NCBI GenBank assembly: GCA_014730235.1
Contig: WJIO01000210.1
Span: 1-19,574, forward strand
Direction: 5' to 3'
DNA length: 19,574 nucleotides
Source: Candidatus Poribacteria bacterium
Lineage (GTDB): Bacteria > Poribacteria > DTPJ01 > WJIO01
In this document: positions 1,382-19,396 of the stretch, piece after piece
Layout: every line of letters starts with the position of its first letter
How positions within the stretch are numbered: the first letter of the stretch is position 1
Program-made: the position numbers and the translations under genes
The notes under the pieces: model-generated
Seen by the model: only the letters and a program-made list of their open reading frames with translations
What the model was told of the DNA's origin: nothing
The model's database searches: none

Positions 1382-2353
1382 ATGAGTAGTGGCTCACGCA
1401 AAGTATATGTAAGCAGGCCCATCCCGGAACCCGGTTTGGATTTACTCAGAGAGTGTTGTGACGTAGAGGTAAAACCCACAGACGAACTGGTGCCAAAAGA
1501 GGAACTGATGGAAAAGGTCAAAGGCAGGGACGCCCTACTTTGCCTGTTGACTGAAAAAATTGACGAAGAAATCATAAAAGCTGGCATTGATCTTAAGATC
1601 ATCGCAAACTACGCTGTAGGTTACAATAACATAGATGTAGAAACCGCAACAAAAAATGATATATGGGTAAGTAACACACCAGGAGTTTTGACGGATACCA
1701 CAGCCGATATGGCCTGGGCCCTGATGTTCGCTGTTGCCAGAAGAGTTGTCGAGGGCGACAAGTTCATAAGAGCTAATAAGTTCAAGGGTTGGTCAGCGAC
1801 TATGCTTCTCGGTGGCGACGTTTACGGTAAAACTCTGGGAATAATTGGTGCAGGTCGTATAGGACAAGCCGTGGCCCTAAGGACAACAGGATTCAATATG
1901 CAGGTGCTCTACTCCGATGTCCGACCAAATAACGATCTGGAAAGCAAAATCGGGGCAAAAAAAGTTGATACCGACACGCTGTTAAAAGAGTCCGACTTTG
2001 TATCAATCCACGTCCCCCTGATGCCCGAAACCAGACATCTCATCCGCAAACGCAGCCTGGAGATGATGAAGCCTACAGCTTATCTGATTAATACCTCTCG
2101 CGGCCCTGTGGTAGACGAAGCCTCTCTGGTTGAAGCCCTGAAAGATGGCGTTATAGCTGGTGCAGGAATGGACGTCTTTGAGGAAGAACCAAAGGTGCAT
2201 CCAGGCCTTATGGAACTTGGCAATGTTGTTATGACTCCACATATCGCCAGTGGTTCAAACGAAACCAGGTCGAAGATGGCCGTCATGGCAGCCAAAAACG
2301 TAATAGCAGCACTGGATGGCGAAACCCCGCCAAATGCCGTCAACAGAATATAA
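1382..2353 (+). CDS. D-2-hydroxyacid dehydrogenase, glyoxylate/hydroxypyruvate reductase type
   Basis: NAD(P)H-dependent cytoplasmic reduction of a 2-oxoacid, most likely glyoxylate to glycolate or hydroxypyruvate to D-glycerate. I place the start at ATG 1382 because a strong AGGAGGTG (1368-1375) lies at ideal distance; the in-frame GTG at 1373 would sit inside that site. This gives 323 residues, typical of the family. The Rossmann motif GAGRIG is at residues 156-161. The catalytic triad is present: Arg240 in NTSRGPVVDE, Glu269 in DVFEEEP and His287 in TPHIAS. The substrate-loop segment ANYAVGYNNID is typical of GyaR/GRHPR enzymes. The glycerate kinase just upstream supports a glyoxylate/hydroxypyruvate role over lactate or phosphoglycerate dehydrogenase, and there is no ACT domain as in SerA. 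Cofactor preference was not determined. Confidence 0.92.
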   Translation: MSSGSRKVYVSRPIPEPGLDLLRECCDVEVKPTDELVPKEELMEKVKGRDALLCLLTEKIDEEIIKAGIDLKIIANYAVGYNNIDVETATKNDIWVSNTPGVLTDTTADMAWALMFAVARRVVEGDKFIRANKFKGWSATMLLGGDVYGKTLGIIGAGRIGQAVALRTTGFNMQVLYSDVRPNNDLESKIGAKKVDTDTLLKESDFVSIHVPLMPETRHLIRKRSLEMMKPTAYLINTSRGPVVDEASLVEALKDGVIAGAGMDVFEEEPKVHPGLMELGNVVMTPHIASGSNETRSKMAVMAAKNVIAALDGETPPNAVNRI

Positions 2354-2363
2354 AATTTGTGTC

Positions 2364-2389
2364 TAGGGGCACGCTAATGCGTGTCCCTA
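2364..2389. repeat. Hairpin-forming inverted repeat (GGGGCACGC type)
   Basis: Arms of 11 bases (TAGGGGCACGC and GCGTGTCCCTA) pair around a TAAT loop with a single G-U position. It starts 11 bases after the reductase stop codon, so it would form in the 3' end of that mRNA. No run of T follows, so it is not a standard intrinsic terminator. From memory, similar GGGGCACG hairpins are dispersed in many genomes, so it may be a small repeat of its own. Confidence 0.6.
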
Positions 2390-2436
2390 TGTGCATCAAT
2401 TTGAAGAAAATATCAGTATTTAAGTGGTTTTCAATA

Positions 2437-2571
2437 AATCTTTTGGCTCTTCCGGGTTCAGTGTGGTAATAATTTAAAATTCTCTTAGCTTGTCATTCCT
2501 GCTTTCGCAGGAATGACAGCATAAAAAGTTTCTTATCTTTACCACACTGAACCCGGAAGAACCAATCTTTT
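2437..2571. mobile_element. MITE-like element, copy 1, with 8-bp target duplications
   Basis: The element body is 2445-2563 (119 bp). Its terminal inverted repeats of 25 bp match at 24 positions; the left arm begins GGCTCTTCCGGGTTCAGTG and the right arm ends GAACCCGGAAGAACC. In the exact centre is a palindrome, TGTCATTCCTGC and GCAGGAATGACA around TTTC (2491-2518). Both outer flanks read AATCTTTT (2437-2444 and 2564-2571), a perfect 8-bp direct repeat as left by transposition. It has no coding capacity. The two halves differ in the spacer between arm and palindrome, which allows orientation to be read: the GTTTCTTATC half is on the right here, as in copy 3. It lies in the 300-bp gap between the reductase and kdsB; the rest of that gap holds a small hairpin and AT-rich DNA. 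Confidence 0.88.
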
Positions 2572-2653
2572 CTTAAAATCTCCTTAAGTCAAGCTATTCG
2601 GATTAAAAATAATTTTAACGCGAATAAATTTTAGTTAGTCAATGAGGTAGTAA

Positions 2654-3388
2654 ATGAGTGTTCTAGCAGTTATTCCGGCCCGTTATGGCTCAATCCGTTT
2701 TGAGGGTAAAGTTCTGGTTGACATAATGGGCAAACCCATGGTTCAGCACGTTTACGAAAGGACTGGTAAAGCCAATATACCTGATGAAGTTATAGTCGCT
2801 ACCGATGACCAGAGGGTATACGGCGCAGTAAAGGATTTCAATGGCAATGTTATCATGACCGGAGAACACATAACCGGAACAGACCGGATCGCAGAAGTGG
2901 CAAGTCGTATTGACCATGAGATCATTGTAAACGTGCAGGGCGATGAGCCGTTAATCGAACCGGCCATGATAGACGAAGCAATTCAACCCCTTCTTGATCA
3001 CCAGGATGTGGATTTAAGCACTTTAGCCCATCGAATTGATTCAAAGGAGGATTATCTTAACCCAAACGTGGTAAAAGTCCTGATAGATCAGGCCGGTTTT
3101 GCCATGTATTTTTCCCGTTCTCCTGTACCCCACATTAAGCTGGGGAAATGGAAACCTGATATTCCAGCCTACAGGCACGTTGGACTTTATGTATTCAGAA
3201 GAGAAGCTCTTCTGGAATTTGCACAATTACCCTCCGCACCCTTTGAATCCCTGGAGGGTTTGGAACAGCTAAGATTTCTGGAAAATGGCTACCGTATGAA
3301 AGTGTTGCAGACAAAATACAGATCAATAGGAGTGGATACACCCGAGGACCTGGAAAAAGTAATTGAAATAATCAAAAGCAGTGACTGA
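2654..3388 (+). CDS. kdsB: 3-deoxy-manno-octulosonate cytidylyltransferase (CMP-KDO synthetase)
   Basis: Couples KDO to CMP using CTP in the cytoplasm, the activation step before KDO is added to lipid A. At 244 residues the length is normal. The N-terminal nucleotide-binding signature [15 protein letters not shown] is present, with Glu in place of the common Pro before GK. Next come the TDDQRVY segment, GTDRIAEVA near residue 78 and [11 protein letters not shown] near 95, which holds the metal- and KDO-binding residues of the family. [15 protein letters not shown] and [10 protein letters not shown] near the C-terminus are also typical. ATG 2654 has GAGG at 2644-2647, six bases upstream. It shows that the cell makes KDO-containing LPS and so has an outer membrane. 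The next gene, pyrG, supplies its CTP. An intergenic element sits on each side, so it may be transcribed separately. Confidence 0.96.
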
Positions 3389-3476
3389 TTAGTTAATACT
3401 CGCGATAAGTAATTTCTCATTTAGTAAAATTTTATTTCTATAACTTCGTAATCGCTAAAAATGGATATAATTTAGT

Positions 3477-3551
3477 TGTCATTCCTGCTTCCGCAGGAAT
3501 GACATGCTTAGGAAGTTTTCAAATTATTTCCAGACTAAACCCGGAAGAACC
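3477..3551. mobile_element. MITE-like element, copy 2, right half only
   Basis: The core palindrome (TGTCATTCCTGC, TTCC, GCAGGAATGACA, 3477-3504) and a right arm ending GACTAAACCCGGAAGAACC (to 3551) are clear. The left arm expected near 3430 is not recognisable, so this copy is decayed or truncated. The spacer of the remaining half (reverse strand AATAATTTGAAAACTTCC) matches the left-hand half of copy 1. Copy 2 is therefore inverted relative to copies 1 and 3 and parallel to copy 4. It lies between kdsB and pyrG, ending 65 bases before the pyrG start codon. Confidence 0.75.
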
Positions 3552-3616
3552 CAATTTTTTATAGTGTCTTGAGTCAAAAGTCTTTATCAGTCACAAATCT
3601 TTGGAGTAGTGAGGGG

Positions 3617-5239
3617 ATGCCAAAACAACCGAAAAAATTCATATTTGTTACTGGTGGAGTTGTATCATCTGTCGGAAAAGGTATAACTACTGCATCCGTA
3701 GGAAGACTCCTGGTAAACAGGGGGTTTAATGTAACTCCACTGAAAGTTGATCCATATCTGAACGTTGACGCCGGAACCATGAACCCATATCAGCACGGCG
3801 AGGTCTTCGTTACCCATGATGGAGCCGAAACCGATCTGGACTTGGGGCATTATGAGAGGTTTATAGGCAAGGATTTAAACAGGGAATCCAATTTTACCAC
3901 TGGCTCTGTCTACGGCGCGGTCATAGCAAAAGAGCGTCGCGGCGAATATCTGGGAAAAACAGTTCAGTTAATACCACATATTACTGATGAAATAAAAAAC
4001 AGGATCTACATGTTAGCCGATGACAGTGATGCAGATGTAATGATTACAGAAATCGGTGGAACTATAGGCGATTTTGAAACGCCGCCATTTACCGAGGCCA
4101 TCCGACAGGTTAGACTCGATGTGGGCAAGGAAAACACACTGTTTATACATGTCAGCCTCATCGCCTATGTAGGTCCATGGGGCGAGACAAAAACCAAGCC
4201 TACACAGCACAGCGTTAGAGCCCTTATGGGAATAGGAATAGTGCCGGATATTCTGATCTGCCGCTCAAAAGAAGCCCTTACTGAGGAGCATAAGGATAAA
4301 ATATCCTTGTTTTGCAGTGTTCCAAGAGAAGCTGTTATCGAAGCCAGGGATACAAAAGAAATTTATGATATACCATTAATATTTGAGCGTCAGGGTCTGG
4401 CAAATCTCATTATCAAAAGGCTGGGTTTGCCCGATAGTTCACCCGATACGGCCCAATGGTCGTCAATGGTAAAGAAGATAAAAAATCCAAAAGAAACCGT
4501 TGTCATTGCCATTGTCGGCAAATACACAGAACATGGCGACGCATACATGTCCATAACCGAAGCCCTGAAGCACGGCGGCGCAGCCAACGAAACCTGCGTC
4601 GAAATAAAATGGATTGAGTCTGACGATCTACAGGATGAAAGCAATATTAGAGATAACCTCAGGGATGTTCATGGGCTTCTGGTTCCCGGTGGATTTGGTT
4701 ACAGAGGTATAGAGGGTAAGATCAACGCCGTTAAATACACCCGGGAAAACAAACTGCCTTATCTGGGCTTATGTCTGGGAATGCAGTGTGCCACTATTGA
4801 ATTTGCCCGGAACGTGCTGGGTATGGAAAAAGCTAACAGTTCAGAATTCGATCCCCAAACACCTTATCCTGTGATCCATCTAATGGCCGAACAGGAAGAA
4901 ATAGAGGACATGGGCGGAACCATGCGTTTAGGTACATACCTATGCGTTCTGGATAACCAATCCAAATCTTATAAGGAATATGGTATAGATTCTGTTGGTG
5001 AACGTCACCGTCACCGTTTCGAGTTTAACAATAAATATCGGGATGATTTTACATCCAATGGTTTCAGACTCAGCGGTTTATCTCCCGACGGTCAGTTGGT
5101 TGAATTAATCGAACTGGACGATCATCCTTGGTTTATAGCTTCCCAGTTCCATCCTGAATTCAGGTCAAAGCCTTTGCATCCGCATCCTCTATTCCGGGGA
5201 TTCATTGCAGCGGCTTTAAGGCAGAAAGCAAATAAATAG
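3617..5239 (+). CDS. pyrG: CTP synthase (glutamine-hydrolysing)
   Basis: Makes CTP from UTP, ATP and glutamine in the cytoplasm. I place the start at ATG 3617, which gives MPKQPKKFIFVTGG, aligned with the usual family N-terminus, and 540 residues (E. coli about 545). GGAG at 3603-3606 is 10 bases upstream. The reading frame is open back to a TTG at 3569, but those 16 residues have no family counterpart. The synthetase domain carries the P-loop GGVVSSVGKG at residues 13-22 and LKVDPYLNVDAGTMNP. The glutaminase domain has GGFGYRG, the nucleophile Cys386 in GLCLGMQC, and His512 and Glu514 in FHPEF. A TATAAT lies at 3466-3471, next to the copy 2 palindrome, without a convincing -35. The pairing with kdsB joins CTP supply to CTP use. 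Confidence 0.97.
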   Translation: MPKQPKKFIFVTGGVVSSVGKGITTASVGRLLVNRGFNVTPLKVDPYLNVDAGTMNPYQHGEVFVTHDGAETDLDLGHYERFIGKDLNRESNFTTGSVYGAVIAKERRGEYLGKTVQLIPHITDEIKNRIYMLADDSDADVMITEIGGTIGDFETPPFTEAIRQVRLDVGKENTLFIHVSLIAYVGPWGETKTKPTQHSVRALMGIGIVPDILICRSKEALTEEHKDKISLFCSVPREAVIEARDTKEIYDIPLIFERQGLANLIIKRLGLPDSSPDTAQWSSMVKKIKNPKETVVIAIVGKYTEHGDAYMSITEALKHGGAANETCVEIKWIESDDLQDESNIRDNLRDVHGLLVPGGFGYRGIEGKINAVKYTRENKLPYLGLCLGMQCATIEFARNVLGMEKANSSEFDPQTPYPVIHLMAEQEEIEDMGGTMRLGTYLCVLDNQSKSYKEYGIDSVGERHRHRFEFNNKYRDDFTSNGFRLSGLSPDGQLVELIELDDHPWFIASQFHPEFRSKPLHPHPLFRGFIAAALRQKANK

Positions 5240-5685: not shown

Positions 5686-8600
5686 ATGTCCATTTCAAAA
5701 CATATACAAAATTTTTCTTCATCCATTACTCATCCCCTGTCACGCGTCCCCTGTTACGCGTTAACCATAATATCTCTGCTTCTAATCCTGTTCACACAGT
5801 TTCCGGCTTTCGCTATCCCCGACACATCCATAATAGCCGGCCCATCCGATACCATATCCTCCGGCGATCTGGTCTTCTTCTGGACAGGAAATGTTGATTC
5901 TCCTGATACCCACATAAGGGGGTTTTATTACCGGCTGGATGACGCCCCTTGGGGTTTTACTCGGGATCGTTTTATTGCGTATTACGGTCTTTCCAATGGT
6001 TCACATCAACTGGAAGTAAAAGCTGTGGATAATCTTAATATCGAAGACCCAACTCCGGCTATCCGAAGTTTCACGGTTCAGGAAAACCCGTTTATCGAAC
6101 CCGACGAAAGCCCCTTTACAGTACAGAGGGATTTTGTCAATCAACTGGACAGTGGCATTATTTCCCGGGATCTCAGGCAGGAGTTCTCAGACCAGCGACG
6201 TTCAATCTCCCAGGATGCCTTTGTTACCATAGTCTCTCAGGGAGCAGAATGGCTTATAGAGGACGATAACAACAGATACAGGATAAAGAAAGAGGGTAAC
6301 CTCCTTAACGTATACGAGCCTGATTCTGTCATGCGTCTGGATTCCGAATTTGAAGATGATTTAGACGACGGCAATATTACTGAAGAAATGGTGCTTGAGT
6401 TCGAGGATGAGGATATAGACATATCACAGAACTCAACCTTAACAATCATAACACCCGGCAGCGAATGGTTAGTTGACGATAAATACACAATTAGGGACGA
6501 AGGCAATAGACTCAGAGTGTATCAGGATGAGCTTCAGTTTGGCGTTGAATTGATCCAGTTTATGGTAGCCTATCTGGACAGCGGCTTTATTTCAGAGGAC
6601 TTAAACCGAAAATTCACTCAACAGGGCATAAACCTCTCCCCAAATGTAAACATAGAGTCTGTATCAGCAAACCAGTGGATACTGGAGGATGAAGATAATC
6701 AATACATAGTCCAGCGTGCAGGTGAAAGCTTCAACATATATCAGTCCATAAATGACAGCGTTTCCGAGGCCATACAGATAAACCCCGGTTCAGCCATCCG
6801 GGCCCTGAGTCAGCCCGACAGCGACGATAACAACAGCCTTGATACGGACTGGTTCAGCTTTTCCATCCCTGCCGAAACCCGACAAGCAGCCGTCATGTTT
6901 CGCCGCCCCGATTCCATTGGCTTAACGGAGATAAACATATTCCGCCGCCCCGAATTCGCCGCCGGAAGCGAAATATCAGCTTTTAACGCCCAATATCAGG
7001 GTTTCACAGCTTTTGGAGTATCCCAGGGTGAATATCTGATAAGCGTAGTTCCCGACGAGTCCGAAAATCCCGACGCTCCTTATTTTCTCACTGTCATTAC
7101 TGAACCTTTAGCTGAAAATGTGATATGGGATACTGAAAGTAACAACACCCTTGCAAGGGCCACCCAAACCCATTCCGTATCTCTTTCCCCTCTTACCCCC
7201 TGGATTGACATGGTAGGCTTCAAAGGTTCAGATAGCGATACAAAAGATTATTACAGCATATATGTTGACATAACCCAACCTGTTCGCCTGAACGTAAACC
7301 TTACCAGGCCTCAGTCTTTTCCAGCTTCTGTGAGGATAATACCTGCTTCCCAGTCCGGTGGTCAGATTGGCGAATTTCAGGTCTACCCCACTGCTGGCAC
7401 TGGATGGAAATTTGAAGCTGGCGTATTATCCGGCGATTACGTTTTTGAAGTTACGCTCCCTGAAGAGCAGGATTCCCACTACCCCTATTTCCTGACCCTC
7501 TACATATCAAGCCTGCCAGCCGGTGAACAATGGGAGATCGAACCAAATGACACCCCTCAGCTTTCCAATACCTTGCCTTTTAACCAGAGGCTTAGAGCCA
7601 GCAAAGGCTATGACGGCGATACTGCGGATCTATTCCGTTTCAACGTTATTGAGGATTCAATTTTCAGTCTGGTTACATCTGGAATTCTTAAATATAACTC
7701 TATAAGCATATATCCCCTGGATCCCATACTCCTTGTCCCTTCCGGCGATGCCCTGGAATACACCACCATCACAGCCCAACAGCGGGATTCCCTCAGTCTT
7801 GATTTGCTGCCCGGTGATTATCTGCTTGAGGTTGATCTTACTGATATAAACGGCTATTACTGGCTTACCGCCCGGTCTATAGATTCCTTATCCCACGACG
7901 CACCAGATGATGAAAGCCTGAAAGCCGGGGATGTCCTCACAGTGGAAATGGTCTGGACGTCTGGAAATACTGTATCTTTTGATATTATAGATATTAATAC
8001 AGATGAAGCTATCAACGAAGAACCTGTTGCCATGACCGACGACGGTAATGGCATATATATCGGAACTTACACCGTCCAGTCATCCCAACAGCAGGATGAT
8101 GATTTCGTCAATGATTACAGGATAGTGGTTCACATCCAGGATCAGTCTGGCAGTGCAGATTTAATCGCCGATGGCGATGTTACGATTGATACATCCCCGC
8201 CTGATGAAACCCCGCCGGAGATAACCAGCGTAACCCACACTGCCGAGGATAACCCCCTTCGCTCCGGCGACAGGCTTACGGTAACCATTCGGGGTGAAGC
8301 CGGAAACATCGCATCCTTTGACGTGGGCAATTTTCTGTTGGGTGTGGAAGCCTACGACGACGGCCGTCACAACGATGGCGACGCTGACGACGGCGTATAC
8401 GCGGGTTCATACTCCGTAAAAGCCGATGATTACGTCATAGGCGCGGTCATAACCGCTTATCTTGTGGACGGCTTCGGCAACCGGGCCAGCCTTGATGCCT
8501 CTGTCCCAGCCGATATTGTAGGCAATCGTCCTGTAATAAGGACGGTGGATCACAATGCCCGTCTCATCCTCGGCCTTGGCGATACTCTTAAGGTAACTCT

Positions 8601-11600
8601 CCAAGGCGATACTGACGGCATAGCCAGCTTTGACGTGCCCGGTCTGGTAAACAATATCCCCATGTATGACGACGGTCAGCACGACGACAACGGTCGCGGC
8701 GACGGCATATATTCCGGTTCTTATGAAATTCAGGAAGGTGACGGTGTTTTATCCGCTCCTGTAACTGCCCGTCTGGTTGATCGGGAAGGCCGGGAGACAT
8801 CCAAGACCGCGATCTTGGAAGTAAGCGTTGATGCCATTTCACCGCCCCCGGTGATTGGTGTAACAGCCTCTGATAGGCCAGATGATGACGGCGGTTTTAT
8901 CGTCATACAGTGGAATACATCGTCAGAGTTGGATTTTGCCCGTTATAACATATACCTGTCACAACAGCCCATAGGCGGCAGGGTCAGCGGTCTACAGCCT
9001 GCTTTAACTGTCACCGACCTTCTCCGTAACTCAGCGGAATTGGAAGTTGAGGAAAACGCCGTTGATTATTTTGTCGCCGTTACCGCTGTGGATATAATGG
9101 ACAACCAGTCTGAGTTGGACGAAACCGGCAGCTCCACCTTCGGTCCTGTCCAGGCCCTGGACAACGTAAGACCTGCCCCGGTCAGAGTAGTCTCCGCTGT
9201 GGACAGACCCGAAGATTTTGGCGGCGTAATAATTCTAAGCTGGACTCAGGTAAACCAAGAAGCGGATTTCGCTCGGTATAACATATACATGGATACTCAA
9301 ACCATATCATCGGTACAGGACTTAACCCCCTTTGAAGTCGTAACCGATAGATTCATAACCATATTAAGCATACCCGTTTCATCCAACGATATTGATTACT
9401 ATTTTGCCGTAACTGCTACGGATACTTCCGACAACGAATCTTCCCTGGATGCTGAGTCCACCGCCGGCCCTGTCCAGGCCCAAAATAATATTGGAACTCA
9501 ACCCGAAACCCCTGTAAGTATAATAACCGGACCTGTTGGCACTACCCTTTATAATTCTGTGGCCTTTAATCTTTCAAGGTTCATAAGCGGTTCATCCCAG
9601 ATCATTCCCGGTTATTATTACCGCCTTGACGACCGTGCATGGCAGTGGTCTTCTTTATCCACCGTTATTTATAACAATCTCCGGGATGGTTCTCACACCT
9701 TTTCAGTCCGTCTGCCCGATTCCCTTGAAGGCGATGCCGCCGGTTTTGTTCTCAGCCGTTCTTTCTCTGTGCAGGCTGTTTCAACCCTTGAGCGAGAGCC
9801 TAACGACAGCCCGGAGAACGCCCATGAAATCCCCTCTGGTGTGGTAACCCGGGGGCAAAGCTCCAGTGCTGACGACAGCGACTGGTTCAGGGTTCATATC
9901 CCGGCCAACAGTCCATCTGTGGCCCATGTGATATTCTCACCGTCCCCCTCTCTGGCTTCTGCCGATATAACTGTCCATGCTCTTGGGCCCTTGCGGGAGA
10001 TAGGTAGTTTCACAAGCTCTAATGGCCAGCCCGGTCATTTCAGCTTTGGTCTTTCCCAGACTTCGGATTATTATATACAGGTTAATACCTCCAACGCCGG
10101 AAACTATAGACTCGTAGCTGCTTATCATGTCCTTCCCCAGGAATACTATTGGGAGACGGAGAACAACGACCAGGGCCCAGCCGCCGATGTTATCGGTTCT
10201 GATATCCGGGAGATCCATGCCAACACTAGCAAAAGCGGCGACGTGGATTGGTTCAGGTTTTTTGTGACGCAGTTTTCTGGAAAGGATTCCGCGTGGATGG
10301 AGCTTTCTCTCCATCGCCCTGATATTCAGGCTGAAACCACTGTGGAAATATACTCCTCCTCCCCCGGCCCTGCGGATTTACAGGTAACCCGGTTCACCCT
10401 TGATCCCGTTTCCCAGTTTCAGGAGCTTACTCCCGACTTTGCTGGCCCGGTTAGTGCTGGAACGGATTATTTTATCAGGATTGACAGTGGCAGTGAACAG
10501 CCTTTTAACCCCTATCAGGTCTCTTTGGATCTATCGGAAGTGCCTGTTGGGGATGATTTTATCTGGGAGGTTGAACCAAACAACACCTCGAACCGGGCCA
10601 ATATGCTGGACATAGGCATAAAGCGCCGCGGCAACAGTTGGGATGCTAATCAGGATATTGACTGGTACAGGATCAACATTCCCGATGAAGGGGTATTGAA
10701 CTTAAATCTCTCCAGACCTGGTGGATTAGGTTCTACAACCCTTGAAGTTTACGATGCCTCCATGATGCCGGTAGGAAGCATGCAGGTTACCCCCTTATTC
10801 TCACAAAAAGGGGGCATAAACGTCGATGTGGCCCCCGGAGCATATTACGTTAAGCTGACACCTCAGGGTGAGCTTTCTGGGGCGTTTTATGAGTTAAGCG
10901 CGTTTCTGGTGGATTCAGTTTCTATGGTTCGTGTTTCATCTCAAGGCGAAGAAATACAAGACACAAACCAACCCCTGAAAGCCGGTGACATGATCCAGTT
11001 AGAGCTGGTATGGAACGTAGCCGATGGAACGGTAACCTTTGACATAGGCGATATTCAGACGGACATACCTATGACCCATCAGGAAAACGGAACTTATACC
11101 GGTTCATACACCTTTGTAACCGGAGACAATCAGACCAGAGCCCCTGTTGTCCTGCACCTTCAGGAGCCATCAGGAACAGTAGCCGACATCGAGTTTGACG
11201 AGACTGTGACTGTGGATACCCTACCTCCGGCCATTGCTCAGGTATCCCATGATGCATTAACCCCTCTTGCCGCTGGTCGTGATTTGACCGTAAGTATGAT
11301 AGGCGAACCCAGAGGAAGGGCAACCTTTGATATTGGCAACTTTAGAACAGGTCTGGATATGTATAACATGGCCTTTGACGGTGAGATGCCCCCTGTGGCC
11401 ATATTGTTCTGGAACTGGCGTCTGGAGCCGGGTGTTGGTCTGCTGGTATCCGGTCGGGTAAAAAATATATCCGATTCTGTAAGGAACAGGGTAAAGATTA
11501 ATTATACCTTCTACGATATTGACGATGAAGTTGTCAGCGAAGGCTTTATTTTCACCTCACCTCGCAGCATATCCCCCGGTGTTTCCCCATCGTTCAAGAC

Positions 11601-14600
11601 TTATGCGGATTACAGCGGCAGTGAGGTCAGGGCAGAACTTGAATTGGTGTATGGTAATGATGAAACTTTTGCCGGTGAAACCTCCGACGAAGGCATATAC
11701 ACCGGGATTTATCAGGTGGGCGAAAATGACAATGTGTCTGACGCTCCCGTCATATTTCACCTCACCGACGTTGCCGGTAACAGTTCCCAGACTCAGGCTG
11801 AAAATGCGGTAACCTTTGATAACATATCCCCTGTAATTGTTTCCTTAACTCACAACGCGGATCAGGTATTAGTAGAAAACGACGTTTTGACTGTTACCAT
11901 GCGCCTTGAGAACCCCGAACCCGGTGCCGAAGCCAGCTTTGATATAGGCGACTTTCGATCGGGGATTGACATGTCCGTCAATAATTCCGAACTCATTGAA
12001 TACATCGGCACTTATCGGATCAGGGCTGGTGATCAGGTGGAAAATGCCCTGATTATCGGACATATTTCAGACGCTGCCGGCAATGAAAATGAACAGACGA
12101 GTATCCAGTCTGTAAGCATCGATACATCAACTCCCAATATATCATCCGTAACATTCAACAGCAAAAACAGACCCTTCGTTCAGGATGAAGAACTCACAGT
12201 CTCTGTCCGCACCGACCCCGGCTCTGTGGTTACTTTCAGCGTGGAAGGTCTGGTTTCCGATGTGCCCATGTATGACGATGGTCAACATGATGACAGCGAA
12301 CCCGGCGACGGTCTTTACAAGGGTTCATACACCATCAGCCAGGATGATAACATTACCGCCCAGAGGATCAGGGTAACTGTAACAAATCCCAATGGAAAGA
12401 CGACAGTCCGTCAGTCTCTTGAAACTGTTTCTGTGGATACTACCCCGCCTGCTGAGGTTACAGGTGTAACAGCATCAGACAGACCCGATGATGAAGGCGG
12501 CTATCTGGTTCTAACATGGCAGGCCAGTCAGGATGAGGATTTCCACCACTACAATATATACCAGTCAGAAGCTCTTATAACTAATATTGTGCAATTAGAA
12601 CCATTGGATATAAACATAACCGATATAAACAACACCAGCGTTCAGATTCCCGTACCCATGTCCGACCCCGAACTACCGCCAGCCAATTACTACTTTGCTG
12701 TTACGGCCGTGGACGTGGCCACCAACGAATCCCGCATCACCAGCGAAAGCACCGCAGGCCCTGCATCGGCTCAGGACAATCTCCCGCCGCCGCCGGTAGA
12801 AACTGTGACGGGATATGACCGGGCTTTCGACAACGGAAAAGTCATAACAATAACATGGAGCGATCCATCCCCGGCCGAGGATTTTCGCCGCTATCACGTC
12901 TACATGGACAGCGTTCCCATAACGTCAACATCTGGTCTTGCACCTGTAGAAGCAGGCATCACTGATCGAAATGTATTATTGACAGATATAACCGTACCCC
13001 AGGACGACGTAGAATTCTATTTTGCCGTTACTGCCCTTGACACTTCCGGCAATGAATCAGTTTTAACGGATAATTCAACTGCGGGGCCTTTGTCCAGCCA
13101 GGATAATCTGGTTGATGTGCCTGATACCCTTGTAAAGCTCATAAGTGGTCCCATAGGCGAAGTTCATCACGACGACGTAACCTTCATCTGGAACCGATGG
13201 TTCAAAAACAGCGGTTCCGGTCTAACAGGATATTACTACAAGCTGGATAACGCTAACTGGACATGGACTGACCAGAATTACAAAATCTATAACGACCTTA
13301 ATCCCGGTGAACACATGTTTTACGTCAGGGCTGATTTAGGTTCAGGCCAGACCGATCCCATGCCTGCCAGCAGGACTTTTTCCGTCAGACGCATAAACAT
13401 CCCGGAGGATGAACCTAACGACACCGTAGGCCAGGCCAACTGGATCTCAAAAGGAATGACCATCACCGGCGTAAACGCCGGTGATGACGATAACGACTGG
13501 TATAGATTCCATGTGGAATCCGCAGGCATTATGACGCTGCATTTTAACCGCATAAGGGCTGTAGGCTCTACGGAAGTCTCGATTTACAGGGCTTTGCCTG
13601 CAACCCAGGAAACCAGGATAGGCAGTTTCATTGTAAATACTGCCGATAAACGCCATAATTTCAGCACCGGCGTGGAATTGGGCGATTACTTCATGCTGGT
13701 GGATTCCCAGGGTGAGGATTCGGAATATGATCTGTCAGTGATCACCGTTGAAATGCCGGAGGATATTTTGTGGGATATGGAGAACAACGACCAACCCCGA
13801 TTTGCTCAGTTGGTGGGACGGTGGGATCTGGAACCGGGAGTCACCGAGGAACTCCCGGTAACACAGGTTTCCGGTTTTGGGAACAAGGAATCAGACATAG
13901 ACTGGTATCAAATTCAGGTGTCTGGTTTGGCCCCCAATACCTCAGTTTTCATGGACCTGGATTTTGTACGTCCAAAAGGTGCTGGAACTACCGAAATTAG
14001 CCTTTATTCATCCTTCCCTGTTACCGATTCACCAAAAGTTGGCGTTATAAAACTTGAGCCTGCCAATGCTCAAATGAGTTTGTTCTCTACTCCTGTAAGG
14101 AATGGTGATTACTACCTTAAAGTTGATAATTCCCAGGAAATGGACTTATCCAGCATGTACTTTTTCAAGGTTTCGTTTAGAGCAGTACCCGATAAGTGGG
14201 AAGTAGAGCCAAACGGCGTTTCTCAATTTGCCAACAACCTTTCTGTGGGTGAAGTCATAAAAGGAACTAGCTGGCATCCTGATGATGATGTGGACTGGTT
14301 CAAAGTTAGACTAACCAGACGGGGAACCTTTGTGTTGTCTTACTTCAGACCCTTTGGTACTGGTTCTGCCGATATGAAGCTCAAAGGCGCAAACGGTGAA
14401 GATATAGCCACTGCATCAGCCGGTATATTCTCCGGTCAGAAAGCGGATATAAGCGCAGAGCTTAATCTTGGTGATTACTTTGTTGTTATTGATCCACAGT
14501 CAGAAGCTGATGCTTCGGCTTATTACTACCTTACGACTGTAGTTCTGGATGATGTGGAGTCAGAAATTGTTTACAGCGAAGATAATCCCTTTGATGAAAG

Positions 14601-17600
14601 GGAAATCCTTTCAATAGGTGATGTTTACAGGCTTTCGGTGGAATGGAAACCGGGTAACAACATCAGCTTTAATATTGGCGATCTCAGATCAGACATCCAG
14701 TTGTCCGGCGATGGTTTGTATACCGGTTCATATACTATTCAAAATGGGGATGATATACAGGACGCAGAAATTGTACTTGTAATTGACATGCCGCCGGCTT
14801 CTGCATCGGCAGATGACACCTGGACTGCGGAAGTAACCCTTGATGATACCATAACCATAGACACAACGCCGCCGAGAATTACCAGGATCGATCATAACAT
14901 AAGGCTGCGCCCACTTAAAGCCGGTGAAGAACTGCAAGTAACCATGAACGGCGAAGCCGGGGCCAGGGGCGCTTTCTTTGATATAGTTGTTCCTGACGGC
15001 ACTTCAATACTGCGGTATTCGGAAATACCCATGACAGAAGACCCGGAGGGAACTTATGCAGGGATATACACCGTTGAGGAATTGGATAATATAAGCGGGG
15101 CCTCTGTAATAGGTCATCTTTTTGATACGGCCGGAAATGAATCCACCAGAACGTCGGATCTCCCTGTTTACTTTGACACTCTGCCGCCGGATATTGAAGC
15201 TGTGGAGCATGATGCTGTTGAAGAAGCCCTGTTAGAGGGCGAGGTTATTACTGTAAAGGCTATCAGCGATACAATAGGCGGAAAGGCCGTATTCAGCATC
15301 GGAGATTTGGTTCCAGAAAGGGTTATGTATGACGATGGAACAAGGGGTGACGAAGAGGCTGATGATGGAGTTTATACAGGCAGGTATACGATAAGACCGG
15401 GCGATAATGCTACCGATGCCCTTGTTACCGTCAGGCTTGAAGATAAGGCCGGTAATGTAGCTGAAGAAAGGGCTTTAAACCCTGTCAATGTGGACACATC
15501 ATCACCGGAGATCACCTCCGTTGTTCACAACGCTGATGACATTCTTTCAGAAGGCGATGAACTTATGGTAACCCTTACCGGCGTTCCGGGAAATACTGCC
15601 AGCTTTGACATAGGTGAATTTCTGAAAGATCAGCCTATGTATGACGATGGAACCCGTTTGGATGAAACAGCCGGAGATGGTAACTATACGGGAATTTACG
15701 AGGTGAAAGAAGGTGATTTTGTAGAAAATGCCCGGATTACAGGCTATCTTGAGGACGAAAGCGGAAACCGGTCTGTATACAGGGTCTTTGAAAGGGTTAG
15801 TATAGACGCGATTGCGCCTTCACCGGTTCTTAACGTCCAGGCGGAGGACAAGCCTGATGACCAGGGATACAGGATTATATTAAGCTGGGACGCTTCGGAT
15901 GATGAAGGGCTTGAGCATTACAACATATACAGGGAGTCCTCACCTATAACCTCTATTTTAGGTCTGGCTCCTCTTGCTGATTCTGCTTTGCTTGACAGAT
16001 CCTTTACCCAATATGAAATCACAGTTCCCAGCAATGACAGTAGTTATTATGTGGCGGTGACGGCTGTGGATACGGCCGGAAACGAGTCTTTACTGGCTAT
16101 TGAGCCGGTAAATGGAAATTCCGGCAGTGTTTTCGGACCTGTTCGGGCTGTTGATAATATTGCCCCGGAACCTGTGACAAGGGTTTCTGCACAAGATAAC
16201 CCGGATGACCAGGGAAAGACTGTATTGGTTAGCTGGACAAGGGCCACCCAAGAAGATGATTTCGGATACTACGGTGTGTATTATTCAGAAGAGCCTATTA
16301 CGTCGGTGGAAGATTTAGAAAATGTGCAGACTTTTGGCCCCAGGGATGTTGTGAGTTTACCTAATGGCATAGGTGCTTACGTTTCAGTGCCTGCCGATGG
16401 TGTGGATTATTATTTTGCCGTTACAGCTTTTGATGAAAATGATAATGAGTCAGGGCTTGATGATCAGGGGCGTTCAACAGCCGGACCTGTGGCTTCCTCC
16501 GATGATGTTCCGCCTGATCCCGTTATTATACTGGAAGCCGCCGATGCTCCAGGCGATGAAGGTGGGTATCTGGAAATATTCTGGCGTTATAACACAAAGG
16601 AAGATATACGGGAGTATAATTTTTATCTTTCCACAGAATTTATTGATAACAGCGTTATAGACGACCTTATACCTACTGATCTTGTCAGTACTGCCGAAAT
16701 TAGTGTTACCGATTCTGTCGCAAGTTATGAACTTCGATCTCCTGCTGACCTGGTGAGTTTTTACGTGGCGATTACGGCTGTGGACTACGGCGGCAACATG
16801 AGTTCGCTGGATGATTCGGGTATGTCCGTTGCAGGGCCTGTTCAGTCGGTCTCCAATACTACCAGTGTGAATTCAAGCAGTGTGATTTTTGCTGGCTTTG
16901 ACCCCAAGACATCGGTTATTGTGCCTGCTGGTGCTATGCCAGACGGTGGAACGGTGGATATTTTCCTTCCTTCGGAATCCTTACTCAGAACTATAGAAGA
17001 AGCGGATCAATTCCTGGAAAGAGCCCATATTGATCCGGAACTAGACTTTTATTTTGATAATACTGTTCGGGAATTTATCTCCAGCACATCGGCTCTTAAT
17101 AGACCTGTGGAAATTACCCTGTCCTATCCGGATTTTGCCGAATTACAGGCAACCAGATTTATAGGTGCAGAGATACCTTCCGGGGAAGACGAGGCACATC
17201 TCAGGATATTTAAACTCAACCAGGAATCCAGAATACCACGATGGGATCTGGTTACCGGCTCTCATGAGGTAAACACCAGCCAGAGGACAGTCTCTGTGGA
17301 GGTGAATTCCTTTGGCGTTTACAGGATAGGTATACTGGAATTGCCTACAAGCCTGGACAGAGTTGTGGTTTATCCCAACCCCTATATACCATCTCAATCC
17401 CTTAACGGCTACGTTACATTTAAGAACCTTACAGATAGGTTTACTATTGACATATACACTCTGAACGGCGATCATGTAAGGACTATTGAACGTCAAAACG
17501 GCGGCGGCGATGAGGCCATATGGGACGTGAGAAATAAGCAGGATGAAGAAGTGGCCAGCGGAACTTATTTGTTTATTATTCAGGGGGATGATGATTCTTA

Positions 17601-17628
17601 TGTAGGTAAGATTGTTGTTTTACGGTGA
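5686..17628 (+). CDS. Giant secreted multidomain Ig/PPC/FN3 protein with FlgD-like C-terminal domain
   Basis: A 3980-residue exported protein, very acidic, with no enzymatic domain that I can recognise; a structural, adhesive or matrix role is inferred. An N-terminal signal peptide has its hydrophobic core at about 25-36 and probable cleavage after AFA at residue 43. Super-module 1 spans about 46-1275, super-module 2 about 1276-2478 and super-module 3 about 2479-3725. Each has an Ig-like domain (YYRLDxxxW and DGSH signatures), three PPC-like domains (WxxExND and DxDWFR), three or four Ig-like domains (YDDGxHxD, GDGxYxGSY, VDTxPP) and two or three FN3-like domains (DFxxYNIY, YYFAVTAVDxxGNES). 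A ZU5-like domain (about 3730-3885) and a C-terminal FlgD/type-IX-like domain (3886-3980) follow. ATG 5686 is the only start downstream of an in-frame TAG and has no clear ribosome binding site. MITE-like copies lie on both sides, so it is probably its own transcription unit. Confidence 0.93.
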   Translation: MSISKHIQNFSSSITHPLSRVPCYALTIISLLLILFTQFPAFAIPDTSIIAGPSDTISSGDLVFFWTGNVDSPDTHIRGFYYRLDDAPWGFTRDRFIAYYGLSNGSHQLEVKAVDNLNIEDPTPAIRSFTVQENPFIEPDESPFTVQRDFVNQLDSGIISRDLRQEFSDQRRSISQDAFVTIVSQGAEWLIEDDNNRYRIKKEGNLLNVYEPDSVMRLDSEFEDDLDDGNITEEMVLEFEDEDIDISQNSTLTIITPGSEWLVDDKYTIRDEGNRLRVYQDELQFGVELIQFMVAYLDSGFISEDLNRKFTQQGINLSPNVNIESVSANQWILEDEDNQYIVQRAGESFNIYQSINDSVSEAIQINPGSAIRALSQPDSDDNNSLDTDWFSFSIPAETRQAAVMFRRPDSIGLTEINIFRRPEFAAGSEISAFNAQYQGFTAFGVSQGEYLISVVPDESENPDAPYFLTVITEPLAENVIWDTESNNTLARATQTHSVSLSPLTPWIDMVGFKGSDSDTKDYYSIYVDITQPVRLNVNLTRPQSFPASVRIIPASQSGGQIGEFQVYPTAGTGWKFEAGVLSGDYVFEVTLPEEQDSHYPYFLTLYISSLPAGEQWEIEPNDTPQLSNTLPFNQRLRASKGYDGDTADLFRFNVIEDSIFSLVTSGILKYNSISIYPLDPILLVPSGDALEYTTITAQQRDSLSLDLLPGDYLLEVDLTDINGYYWLTARSIDSLSHDAPDDESLKAGDVLTVEMVWTSGNTVSFDIIDINTDEAINEEPVAMTDDGNGIYIGTYTVQSSQQQDDDFVNDYRIVVHIQDQSGSADLIADGDVTIDTSPPDETPPEITSVTHTAEDNPLRSGDRLTVTIRGEAGNIASFDVGNFLLGVEAYDDGRHNDGDADDGVYAGSYSVKADDYVIGAVITAYLVDGFGNRASLDASVPADIVGNRPVIRTVDHNARLILGLGDTLKVTLQGDTDGIASFDVPGLVNNIPMYDDGQHDDNGRGDGIYSGSYEIQEGDGVLSAPVTARLVDREGRETSKTAILEVSVDAISPPPVIGVTASDRPDDDGGFIVIQWNTSSELDFARYNIYLSQQPIGGRVSGLQPALTVTDLLRNSAELEVEENAVDYFVAVTAVDIMDNQSELDETGSSTFGPVQALDNVRPAPVRVVSAVDRPEDFGGVIILSWTQVNQEADFARYNIYMDTQTISSVQDLTPFEVVTDRFITILSIPVSSNDIDYYFAVTATDTSDNESSLDAESTAGPVQAQNNIGTQPETPVSIITGPVGTTLYNSVAFNLSRFISGSSQIIPGYYYRLDDRAWQWSSLSTVIYNNLRDGSHTFSVRLPDSLEGDAAGFVLSRSFSVQAVSTLEREPNDSPENAHEIPSGVVTRGQSSSADDSDWFRVHIPANSPSVAHVIFSPSPSLASADITVHALGPLREIGSFTSSNGQPGHFSFGLSQTSDYYIQVNTSNAGNYRLVAAYHVLPQEYYWETENNDQGPAADVIGSDIREIHANTSKSGDVDWFRFFVTQFSGKDSAWMELSLHRPDIQAETTVEIYSSSPGPADLQVTRFTLDPVSQFQELTPDFAGPVSAGTDYFIRIDSGSEQPFNPYQVSLDLSEVPVGDDFIWEVEPNNTSNRANMLDIGIKRRGNSWDANQDIDWYRINIPDEGVLNLNLSRPGGLGSTTLEVYDASMMPVGSMQVTPLFSQKGGINVDVAPGAYYVKLTPQGELSGAFYELSAFLVDSVSMVRVSSQGEEIQDTNQPLKAGDMIQLELVWNVADGTVTFDIGDIQTDIPMTHQENGTYTGSYTFVTGDNQTRAPVVLHLQEPSGTVADIEFDETVTVDTLPPAIAQVSHDALTPLAAGRDLTVSMIGEPRGRATFDIGNFRTGLDMYNMAFDGEMPPVAILFWNWRLEPGVGLLVSGRVKNISDSVRNRVKINYTFYDIDDEVVSEGFIFTSPRSISPGVSPSFKTYADYSGSEVRAELELVYGNDETFAGETSDEGIYTGIYQVGENDNVSDAPVIFHLTDVAGNSSQTQAENAVTFDNISPVIVSLTHNADQVLVENDVLTVTMRLENPEPGAEASFDIGDFRSGIDMSVNNSELIEYIGTYRIRAGDQVENALIIGHISDAAGNENEQTSIQSVSIDTSTPNISSVTFNSKNRPFVQDEELTVSVRTDPGSVVTFSVEGLVSDVPMYDDGQHDDSEPGDGLYKGSYTISQDDNITAQRIRVTVTNPNGKTTVRQSLETVSVDTTPPAEVTGVTASDRPDDEGGYLVLTWQASQDEDFHHYNIYQSEALITNIVQLEPLDINITDINNTSVQIPVPMSDPELPPANYYFAVTAVDVATNESRITSESTAGPASAQDNLPPPPVETVTGYDRAFDNGKVITITWSDPSPAEDFRRYHVYMDSVPITSTSGLAPVEAGITDRNVLLTDITVPQDDVEFYFAVTALDTSGNESVLTDNSTAGPLSSQDNLVDVPDTLVKLISGPIGEVHHDDVTFIWNRWFKNSGSGLTGYYYKLDNANWTWTDQNYKIYNDLNPGEHMFYVRADLGSGQTDPMPASRTFSVRRINIPEDEPNDTVGQANWISKGMTITGVNAGDDDNDWYRFHVESAGIMTLHFNRIRAVGSTEVSIYRALPATQETRIGSFIVNTADKRHNFSTGVELGDYFMLVDSQGEDSEYDLSVITVEMPEDILWDMENNDQPRFAQLVGRWDLEPGVTEELPVTQVSGFGNKESDIDWYQIQVSGLAPNTSVFMDLDFVRPKGAGTTEISLYSSFPVTDSPKVGVIKLEPANAQMSLFSTPVRNGDYYLKVDNSQEMDLSSMYFFKVSFRAVPDKWEVEPNGVSQFANNLSVGEVIKGTSWHPDDDVDWFKVRLTRRGTFVLSYFRPFGTGSADMKLKGANGEDIATASAGIFSGQKADISAELNLGDYFVVIDPQSEADASAYYYLTTVVLDDVESEIVYSEDNPFDEREILSIGDVYRLSVEWKPGNNISFNIGDLRSDIQLSGDGLYTGSYTIQNGDDIQDAEIVLVIDMPPASASADDTWTAEVTLDDTITIDTTPPRITRIDHNIRLRPLKAGEELQVTMNGEAGARGAFFDIVVPDGTSILRYSEIPMTEDPEGTYAGIYTVEELDNISGASVIGHLFDTAGNESTRTSDLPVYFDTLPPDIEAVEHDAVEEALLEGEVITVKAISDTIGGKAVFSIGDLVPERVMYDDGTRGDEEADDGVYTGRYTIRPGDNATDALVTVRLEDKAGNVAEERALNPVNVDTSSPEITSVVHNADDILSEGDELMVTLTGVPGNTASFDIGEFLKDQPMYDDGTRLDETAGDGNYTGIYEVKEGDFVENARITGYLEDESGNRSVYRVFERVSIDAIAPSPVLNVQAEDKPDDQGYRIILSWDASDDEGLEHYNIYRESSPITSILGLAPLADSALLDRSFTQYEITVPSNDSSYYVAVTAVDTAGNESLLAIEPVNGNSGSVFGPVRAVDNIAPEPVTRVSAQDNPDDQGKTVLVSWTRATQEDDFGYYGVYYSEEPITSVEDLENVQTFGPRDVVSLPNGIGAYVSVPADGVDYYFAVTAFDENDNESGLDDQGRSTAGPVASSDDVPPDPVIILEAADAPGDEGGYLEIFWRYNTKEDIREYNFYLSTEFIDNSVIDDLIPTDLVSTAEISVTDSVASYELRSPADLVSFYVAITAVDYGGNMSSLDDSGMSVAGPVQSVSNTTSVNSSSVIFAGFDPKTSVIVPAGAMPDGGTVDIFLPSESLLRTIEEADQFLERAHIDPELDFYFDNTVREFISSTSALNRPVEITLSYPDFAELQATRFIGAEIPSGEDEAHLRIFKLNQESRIPRWDLVTGSHEVNTSQRTVSVEVNSFGVYRIGILELPTSLDRVVVYPNPYIPSQSLNGYVTFKNLTDRFTIDIYTLNGDHVRTIERQNGGGDEAIWDVRNKQDEEVASGTYLFIIQGDDDSYVGKIVVLR
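5734..5761 (+). repeat. Tandem 14-bp duplication within the signal-peptide coding region
   Basis: CCCCTGTCACGCGT (5734-5747) is followed directly by CCCCTGTTACGCGT (5748-5761), with one mismatch. It encodes residues about 17-26, just before the hydrophobic core of the giant protein's signal peptide. Because 14 is not a multiple of 3, the two units are read in different frames, and loss or gain of a unit would shift the frame. Confidence 0.8.
5821..9510 (+). repeat. Super-module 1 of the giant protein (residues about 46-1275)
   Basis: Order of parts: Ig-like 46-132; three 71-residue LDSG repeats 150-354; PPC-like domains at about 355-475, 476-612 and 613-735; Ig-like at about 738-845, 846-948 and 950-1052; FN3-like at about 1056-1165 and 1166-1272. 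The first post-PPC Ig module begins LKAGDVLTVEMVW and ends TIDTSPP, as its counterparts in the other two super-modules do. The second PPC begins VIWDTESNN and the third QWEIEPND, again matching by position. Boundaries are by eye. Confidence 0.75.
6133..6747 (+). repeat. Three tandem ~71-residue repeats of unrecognised type (LDSG repeats)
   Basis: Residues about 150-213, 222-283 and 293-354 of the giant protein share the pattern L-D-[SD]-G-x-I-[ST], then F, then [IL]-S, W-x-[LIV]-x-D, Y-x-[IV] and a final [VI]-Y. The LD pairs fall at 154, 226 and 297, giving periods of 72 and 71. The pattern suggests a short helix followed by a beta-rich part. I do not recognise the family, and no such repeat occurs in super-modules 2 or 3. 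A role in binding or spacing is only a guess. Confidence 0.82.
9511..13119 (+). repeat. Super-module 2 of the giant protein (residues about 1276-2478)
   Basis: Order of parts: Ig-like 1276-1364 (PGYYYRLDDRAWQW); PPC-like at about 1370-1484, 1486-1620 and 1626-1745; Ig-like at about 1746-1847, 1848-2046 (split by an inserted domain), 2048-2147 and 2150-2250; FN3-like at about 2255-2368 and 2369-2475. Signature pieces match super-modules 1 and 3 by position: YYWETENND at the second PPC, FIWEVEPNN at the third, LKAGDMIQLELVW at the first following Ig, and VTASDRPDDEGG at the first FN3. Confidence 0.75.
11362..11679 (+). other. FxLYD-like domain inserted in an Ig-like module
   Basis: Residues about 1893-1998 of the giant protein interrupt an Ig-like module exactly where its siblings carry the YDDGxHxDxxxGDG loop: FRTGLDMYNM lies before it and SDEGIYTGIYQV after it. 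The core (about 1908-1988) has GRVKNISDSVRNRVKINYTF, then a YD pair, VVSEGF and ISPGVSPSF, the usual layout of FxLYD domains (G-x-V-x-N, long strands, then PG-x-x-x-x-F). Assignment rests on pattern only. Confidence 0.6.
13120..16860 (+). repeat. Super-module 3 of the giant protein (residues about 2479-3725)
   Basis: Order of parts: Ig-like about 2483-2569 (TGYYYKLDNANWTW); PPC-like at about 2572-2686, 2690-2833 and 2836-2950; Ig-like at about 2955-3062, 3064-3165, 3166-3270 and 3273-3374; FN3-like at about 3377-3490, 3493-3605 and 3609-3724. The third FN3 has no counterpart in the other super-modules. Position-specific matches include ILWDMENND (second PPC) and KWEVEPNG with GTSWHPDDDVDWF (third PPC). 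Confidence 0.75.
16873..17625 (+). other. C-terminal ZU5-like plus FlgD-like/type-IX-like sorting region
   Basis: Residues about 3730-3885 (SVIVPAGAMPDGGTVDIFLP near the start, VNSFGVYRIGI at the end) look like the ZU5-like domains that often precede this kind of C-terminus. Residues 3886-3980 follow the FlgD Ig-like/type-IX C-terminal consensus: VVVYPNPY, then FTIDIYTLNGDHVRTI, IWDVRNKQ, VASGTYLFIIQ and the final GKIVVLR. In type IX systems such a domain directs crossing of the outer membrane. In other phyla its role is unproven, so surface sorting is an inference. Confidence 0.72.
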
Positions 17629-17857: not shown

Positions 17858-19396
17858 ATGAAAAGAGCAATTATAATATTTACAACTACATTTCTTTTCT
17901 TTATAGCAGTATTTTCAGGTTGCGGGGGAGAGAAGAATATATCATCTGTGGATATAACTCCTCCGGATTTGACTGTGAATATTGAAACAGAATCCCTGTC
18001 CTATCAGGCCATGAGTCCGGTGAAATTTGCGGCGGTTGTGTCCGGTGGCGACGGTGATTACAGCTATGTTTGGGATTTTAACGCTGATGATGGTTATACT
18101 CTGGATGGCTTTCAATCCAACGTTCAGTATATTTACCCGGAATCGGGAGTTTATACTGTCTCGGTTCATGCTGCTGATGGAAGGGGTGCTTCCGGCGAGG
18201 CTGATATTGAAATCAGCGTTAAAGATAAAGAATATGCCGTTCATGAACCTATCAGATTAAGGGATATTTCCCCCACTCCCGATAAGCCATATGTTATTGA
18301 GGGCTATGAGATAACCAATCCCAGCGGCAACGGCATTACCCTTCAAAGATGTAATAACGTTATCATCCGGGACTGCTATATCCACGACTGCGAAAGAAAT
18401 AAAGACGAAGATGGACAGGCGATTTTACTGGAAAACTGCGGGAATATTACAGTACAGAGATTGTATTTAAATAACAACAGATCTGGATTTGTTGCAAATG
18501 GCAACCCGGATCATCTATCCAGCGATTTTATGATAGAAAATAACGTGATTGTAGGCTGTGTTTCAAATGATGCTTTGTCGCTTGTAAACGTCAAAAATTC
18601 GGAAGTTAGATATAATATCCTGTATGATAACGGCACAATCTGGGAAAGGCGCATTTCGGGCATATCCTTTAACGGGGAATTTCATGATATATCTATACAT
18701 AATAACCTGGTGGTAAAATCGGACAGCGACGGGATAGAGTGTCTTGGATACCACTGGCAGGACGTGGCGAAAAACGTGGAAGTTTATGAGAATGTTTTGC
18801 GGGATAACGGGGAACAGGGTGTTTGGTTCTCAAGGATAAACGACGGCCGGATTCATCATAACTACATGGAGGGATCGCATAACTGCGGTGTTTGCTTTGA
18901 TGTGTTGGTTTCGGATGTTCTTATTGACCATAATATCATTGTCCGCTGTGGCGGTATACCCGGTATGAAGCATCACGGCGGAAGCGGCATTGGGCTTAAC
19001 TTTTCTCCGGATAATATAATCCAGTCGAATATCTGCGTTGACAGCACCAGCGGCGATATTTCCATATCTTATCGTGAGAAGGATGAAGAATGGATAAATA
19101 AGATTGACGATAGATCGCGCAGATCCGAAGGGAATGTTATCGATGGTAATGTGATGTGCAGTTCCGAAAGCAACCTGAATATTGACGAAGGGGTGTCTGA
19201 TCCTGTTATAACAAATAACGTATTCTGTCAGCGGGAAAACGGCCGTCATTATCATGGATGCAGTCCAGATGAGAGCAATATTAAGGCAAAACCCCTTTTC
19301 CGTGCCCCGGATCGTGGAGATTTTAATCTTTTGTCTGCTTCTCCGGGATATGAGGCTGTTAAACCAATAAACGAGGCGATAGAAAATGTTCGGTAA
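17858..19396 (+). CDS. Lipoprotein with PKD domain and right-handed parallel beta-helix
   Basis: 512 residues. A lipoprotein signal with hydrophobic residues 4-19 and a lipobox FSGC puts the lipidated cysteine at 22. Phe at -3 is unusual but tolerated. Residues about 35-123 form a PKD domain (YSYVWDFNADDGYT, then GVYTVSVHAADGRG). Residues about 150-440 carry parallel beta-helix coils, seen as repeated short strands such as NVIIRDCYIHDC, NITVQRLYLNNN, DISIHNNLVV, NVEVYENVLRDNG and DVLIDHNIIVRCGG. The end (DFNLLSASPGYEA) is the usual close of such proteins. The fold is shared by pectate lyases, alginate epimerases and many non-enzymatic surface proteins, so carbohydrate binding or cleavage is possible but unproven. 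It overlaps the next gene by 11 nt, so the two are co-translated. The membrane and side to which it is anchored are unknown. Confidence 0.9.
   Translation: MKRAIIIFTTTFLFFIAVFSGCGGEKNISSVDITPPDLTVNIETESLSYQAMSPVKFAAVVSGGDGDYSYVWDFNADDGYTLDGFQSNVQYIYPESGVYTVSVHAADGRGASGEADIEISVKDKEYAVHEPIRLRDISPTPDKPYVIEGYEITNPSGNGITLQRCNNVIIRDCYIHDCERNKDEDGQAILLENCGNITVQRLYLNNNRSGFVANGNPDHLSSDFMIENNVIVGCVSNDALSLVNVKNSEVRYNILYDNGTIWERRISGISFNGEFHDISIHNNLVVKSDSDGIECLGYHWQDVAKNVEVYENVLRDNGEQGVWFSRINDGRIHHNYMEGSHNCGVCFDVLVSDVLIDHNIIVRCGGIPGMKHHGGSGIGLNFSPDNIIQSNICVDSTSGDISISYREKDEEWINKIDDRSRRSEGNVIDGNVMCSSESNLNIDEGVSDPVITNNVFCQRENGRHYHGCSPDESNIKAKPLFRAPDRGDFNLLSASPGYEAVKPINEAIENVR

Follow-up and report, generated by a model that had tools for sequence, protein, structure and literature searches.

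Gene and domain architecture

The window, a 19,574-nucleotide stretch of a Candidatus Poribacteria contig (WJIO01000210.1), carries a giant open reading frame, P0001, whose features are collected in Table 1. The first-pass annotation had delimited a repeated region at 5821–16860, which corresponds to residues 46–3725 and to the three blocks described here. The adjacency to pyrG recurs in three genomes of another family (G003, G040 and G061), which argues for vertical descent of the giant gene. Scans for promoters and terminators around the gene returned nothing above chance. Downstream, a gene at 17858–19396 (+) encodes a product with a lipoprotein-like N-terminus, a PKD domain and a right-handed β-helix.

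Table 1. Features of the giant gene and its neighbour in the window (residues are those of P0001)
Feature	Residues	Position	Strand	Basis
pyrG (CTP synthase), directly upstream of the giant gene		3569..5239	+	
Giant ORF P0001, uninterrupted, all blocks in one frame	3980 aa	5686..17628	+	ORF calling/translation
Signal peptide-like N-terminus, ...LLLILFTQFPAFA	1–43	5686..5814	+	read from sequence
Block A: Y, R ×3, PPC ×3, Ig ×3, FN3 ×2	45–1272	5818..9501	+	own HMMs
R repeats ×3, ~70 aa each, in block A between Y and PPC1	143–354	6112..6747	+	
Block B: Y, PPC ×3, Ig ×4, FN3 ×2	1273–2474	9502..13107	+	own HMMs
FxLYD-type insert, within second Ig of block B	~1897–1998	11374..11679	+	NF038353
Block C: Y, PPC ×3, Ig ×4, FN3 ×3	2475–3728	13108..16869	+	own HMMs
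Post-block region, conserved, family marker A4	3729–3884	16870..17337	+	
T9SS type A sorting tail / FlgD-Ig-like domain, C-terminal	3895–3978	17368..17619	+	TIGR04183

Domain boundaries were set manually and then refined by our own HMMs, iterated over homologues. The resulting map bears out the earlier reading that an Ig-like (Y)–PPC–Ig–FN3 order occurs three times in the giant protein. The earlier domain inventory was right in its order and had missed the three R repeats of block A and the FxLYD insert of block B.

Standard models detect these domains to very different degrees. The Ig series matches choice-of-anchor X (choice_anch_X, NF041940) in five stretches with 98.7 bits, well over the cut-off of 25. 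The FN3-like domains reach 19.2 bits with PF00041, below its gathering threshold of 25, and are therefore called FN3-like only. The block-opening Y domain resembles Y_Y_Y (PF07495; 23.6 bits, gathering threshold 26.6), and the AF2 model of the Y domain of block C is poor, with a pLDDT under 50. The FxLYD-type insert scores 17.2 bits against a cut-off of 23 with NF038353; it has a counterpart in a genome of the same order, G001 (46.5% over 101 aa). The post-block region bears a likeness to ZU5-type domains, seen by eye only. At the C-terminus, TIGR04183 is passed marginally (23.3 bits, cut-off 23), and PF18962 falls short of its cut-off (22.2 versus 27 bits).

The R repeats follow the consensus LDSGxIS...EF...ISxxxxxxIVxxGxEWLxED...YxIxxEGxxLxVY. 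Searches against Pfam and the sequences of solved structures gave no convincing Pfam family and no match to a solved sequence. An R profile nevertheless finds matches in 77 of the 84 Poribacteria genomes, where copy number reaches 34. The AF2 model of the domain is confident (pLDDT 93.5), with two helices and four strands, and comparison with solved structures yielded no convincing counterpart (best Z 4.3). An R-type domain also lies at G000:C249:15377-15571 in the window's own genome, inside a still larger open frame of 5,438 aa.

Pfam PPC (PF04151) has no match on the window contig, nor by hmmscan to E 10. A profile of the blocks' first half, searched against solved structures, matched the tandem collagen-binding domain of ColG (5iku, E 2.9e-12). 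An AF2 model of 590 aa has an overall pLDDT of 72, mostly 70–90 in the PPC part, and superposes on 1nqd with a Z of 17.3 and an rmsd of 1.7 over 110 residues. Other high-ranking Foldseek rows for this model, none of them collagenases, were set aside for their low query TM-scores and large rmsd. On the predicted structure, the nine domains are of PPC fold and not members of Pfam PPC. They share with the collagen-binding (PPC-type) domains of ColG and ColH the fold and an N-terminal E-x-E-x-N-[DN] ... D-x-D motif, but are only ~20% identical to them, come without a peptidase and lie below detection by Pfam PPC. The E-x-E-x-N-[DN] linker and D-x-D motif are kept in most of the nine domains; in collagenase domains these motifs are calcium ligands. 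By analogy, we infer that the PPC-fold domains of the giant protein may bind calcium. In ColG, calcium switches the s3a–s3b linker from helix to strand (PMC4356367). Elsewhere in this genome, other proteins do carry true Pfam PPC domains (G000:C447:6966-9431 and C24:1721-1918), and one 1,485-aa frame has six.

Block-wise repetition within the protein

The giant protein was compared with itself by BLAST in overlapping 400-aa fragments. Long diagonals at offsets of ~1,120–1,210 and ~2,215–2,330 aa were stronger than local ones; the match at ~1,200 aa scored 283 bits (40% over 407 columns), and the best local match, at an offset of ~100 aa, scored 152 bits. Further top offsets were 1,119 and 2,328 aa, and collinear self-matches span 800–1,200 aa. 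The blocks are 28–39% identical in amino acids, and no long tandem repeat was found at the DNA level.

Within the window alone, equivalent positions can be told apart by identity for the PPC domains, where mean identity is 27.3% by equivalent position versus 23.9% within blocks and the true arrangement scores best of all 36. FN3 positions are inseparable by raw identity (F1_A is 45.7% identical to F2_A and 45.2% to F1_B), as are the inner Igs, and homologues were needed. We therefore built domain trees that include homologues from seven other Poribacteria genomes and compared position-label changes with those in 200 shuffles. The labels changed 9 times in the PPC tree (35.8 in shuffles), 13 times in the Ig tree (45.6) and 7 times in the FN3 tree (23.7), and in each case none of the 200 shuffles was as low.

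Because position groups cluster and the collinear self-matches are long, these results support the copying of multi-domain blocks as wholes, followed by separate gains and losses: Ig number now ranges from one to four and FN3 number is two or three, and the R repeats and FxLYD insert differ among blocks. The first-pass annotation had proposed just such whole-block duplication, as opposed to domain shuffling, with later insertions and losses. Two of the checks that it named, self-comparison and trees for each domain class, came out as it expected, and a pattern in which neighbouring domains are closest relatives was not seen. Its position-specific motifs fared unevenly. Read by eye from the translation, the second PPC starts WDTESN, WETENN and WDMENN in blocks A, B and C, and the third WEIEPN, WEVEPN and WEVEPN, both as described; so does the first FN3 (VTASDRPDD, VTASDRPDD and VQAEDKPDD). 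The opening of the first Ig after the PPC domains fits only roughly (GDVLTVEMVW, GDMIQLELVW and GDVYRLSVEW). Its ending is as described (IDTSPP, VDTLPP and IDTTPP), but DTxPP is not specific to that position and is also found in other Igs, such as I2_C and I4_B.

Homologues and the history of the blocks

A search of contigs with the window protein alone recovered no relative, and one with an alignment of homologues as query found one. Marker A4 is present in 15 of 84 genomes of the phylum at E ≤ 1e-5, representing 13 of 21 genera. In nearly every case it behaves as a single-copy marker, with a second weak match in one genome and a weak, doubtful match in G059; G001 clearly has the gene and gives no A4 match, its contigs breaking before the tail. 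Outside the phylum only weak matches were found (best E 3e-17). The marker is absent from every sampled genome of f3, the largest Poribacteria family. The giant gene is also absent from most genomes of f5 and f6, and T9SS-type tails are common in f3, f5 and f6. In G060, the homologue (G060:C1:154000-165000) is split into three overlapping open frames of 906, 1351 and 463 aa, through frameshifts or assembly errors.

Comparison of block number among homologues, also proposed earlier, gave two blocks in G003, three in G016, G023, G067, G040, G055 and G061, and probably four in the diverged G066 and, if its two contigs join, in G057 (Candidatus Poribacteria bacterium Dive96_bin1.70). Block C is the most conserved block, and its counterpart is the terminal block in all homologues. 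This last block reads Y-P3-I4-F3 in all complete homologues, except for an extra PPC in G040 and the diverged G066.

For the block trees, domains were concatenated into an N-half (Y, PPC1 and PPC2) and a C-half (PPC3, the first and last Ig, FN3-1 and FN3-2). N-halves of first blocks from different families form one clade in seven genomes (99/99) and again in nine (79/99, 82% of bootstraps), and C-halves of terminal blocks from 13 genomes form another (100/99, 100% of bootstraps). A clade of the blocks of the window's taxonomic order alone was rejected for both halves (AU p 0.012 for the N-half, 0.007 for the C-half); in a smaller first genome set, the same test rejected it for the N-half (p 0.025) and not for the C-half (p 0.15). 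Grouping blocks A and B together in the N-half was likewise rejected (AU p 0.010). These clades were named after the trees had been seen, composition differs among many rows, and support for the deep branches is weak, since no more than ~100 columns come from a single domain. Judged from these trees, the A/C duplication is older than the sampled families and not one event of this gene, because a clade restricted to the window's order is rejected and first and terminal blocks each cluster across families. Middle (B) blocks form no single group across families; the middle block appears to have a separate, lineage-dependent history, with breakpoints within blocks.

How the middle block of the window arose can be read in more than one way. 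In the window's order, block A groups with block B as its sister in the C-half (98/95 and 85/70 in two trees), B groups likewise with C in the N-half (92/92), and the best self-diagonal covers a shifted unit, residues ~801–1800 against ~2010–3009, with 438 bits. This suggests a register-shifted duplication as the origin of block B, in which a two-block ancestor would have duplicated the stretch from the Ig/FN3 half of A through the next Y-PPC half. The first block of G003 points the same way: its N-half falls with first blocks and its C-half with its own family's middle blocks (100/98), and it looks like a first-block/middle-block hybrid. Placing its C-half with first blocks was rejected (AU p 0.0006), and placing its N-half with B blocks was not (p 0.26). 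However, the C-half of block A could be grouped with other first blocks without rejection (AU p 0.20), an in-register comparison of B with C is as strong as the shifted one (466 bits), and gene conversion would give the same appearance. We take such a shifted origin seriously without quite favouring it.

Concerted evolution, with gene conversion between blocks producing the similarity within a genome, draws on the same mosaic signal, the sister relation of the A and B C-halves. We consider it improbable, since the blocks have diverged so far in protein sequence and orthologous blocks from other families are about as close, which indicates that homogenisation is not ongoing. Tandem growth at the local level, or a shuffling of individual domains that arrived at one order by convergence, would accommodate the varying Ig and FN3 numbers within blocks, FN3 identities that are alike for all pairs, and the interleaved Ig–FN3 order seen in block A of G016 and block B of G023 and G067. 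It is nevertheless very unlikely given how much more tightly position labels cluster than in shuffles, for PPC, Ig and FN3 alike, and how far the collinear self-matches extend, and survives as a minor added process for the inner Igs only. Least credible is a single lineage-specific triplication in this gene, the origin put forward by the first-pass annotation: the three blocks are alike in length and order and nearly equal in pairwise identity (37.6, 38.6 and 37.3% for the C-halves), but block identities are common to several families, terminal blocks from 13 genomes cluster, and the clade that such an event predicts is rejected in both halves.

A putative surface rod and known super-repeat proteins

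We regard it as quite probable that the gene encodes an exported super-repeat surface protein with ancient blocks and a recombining interior. Before today's families diverged, an ancestral Poribacteria gene would already have contained two or more copies of a ~1,200-aa unit, each comprising an Ig-like Y domain, three collagenase-type PPC-fold domains, an Ig series and an FN3 series. Unequal recombination between copies would later have added, removed or hybridised inner blocks, so that homologues now have two to probably four blocks; orthology would have been retained at both ends, in the first half-block (Y-PPC1-PPC2) and in the last block together with its tail. Single domains, R repeats and the FxLYD domain would have been gained or lost separately.

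An elongated, exported T9SS cell-surface rod is likely from the signal peptide-like start, the T9SS tail, the putative T9SS genes of the genome and the ~36 mostly β-sandwich domains. The same genome encodes PorU-type C25 peptidases and members of the PorV family that score over their cut-offs, and a SprA-like ORF of 2300 aa with 71.5 bits against a curated cut-off of 200. Export by type IX secretion would leave the C-terminal end held at the cell, with a rod on the order of 100 nm projecting from it; the tip would consist of the N-terminal half-block and the R repeats, and inner blocks would set the reach. Conservation is highest in the last block and tail, on the anchor side; the first half-block, on the tip side, is conserved as a type, and the middle varies. 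We infer an adhesive or scaffolding role. A more specific version is tentative and rather doubtful: a fixed-ended rod tuned in length would have kept its tip half-block and anchor block for as long as the families have existed, inner blocks would come and go by recombination at breakpoints within blocks, as register-shifted units and A/B hybrids, and block number would be selected as reach.

In the super-repeats of titin, domains at equivalent positions are most alike (PMC10665226), and repeats are known to expand several domains at once, often in the middle of an array (PMC1553488). Like the A-band of titin and the seven-module super-repeats of nebulin, the giant protein has a mixed series (Ig/FN3 in titin) duplicated as multi-domain units, and it has the repeated domain order, with equivalent positions closer than neighbours, that marks a titin-type architecture. 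It differs in being bacterial and exported, with a ~1,200-aa unit that includes PPC-fold and Y domains in two to four copies; it has no muscle role and is not homologous to either as a protein. Super-repeat growth is already known; the giant protein is a well-documented bacterial case, and its novelty is modest.

Periscope Proteins and fibrillar adhesins are surface rods whose variable repeat number would set the reach of the tip (PMC8201768). The geometry is shared, the rod of the giant protein being predicted from sequence. Periscope repeats are highly similar (82–100% between adjacent ones in Sgo_0707) and vary between strains, whereas the blocks here are multi-domain, 28–39% identical and vary between genera, with one genome per species. 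As judged by its domains, the giant protein is not a Periscope Protein: its repeats are far too divergent.

What the gene offers is a well-sampled example of super-repeat evolution in bacteria, with four domain classes per unit and identifiable orthologous ends, in a phylum-level Poribacteria family whose domains are barely detected by standard models. Homologues with two to probably four units allow a test of how surface proteins of such size gain and lose length. A parallel may be found in Giant1–5 of Apilactobacillus kunkeei, very large proteins outside the cell whose diversity is attributed to recombination within their genes (PMC12863079). Great size in a bacterium and intragenic recombination are common to both; Giant1–5 have β-solenoid domains and a Gram-positive host, and the abstract describing them reports no such block structure, in contrast to the Ig, FN3 and PPC-fold blocks of the giant protein.
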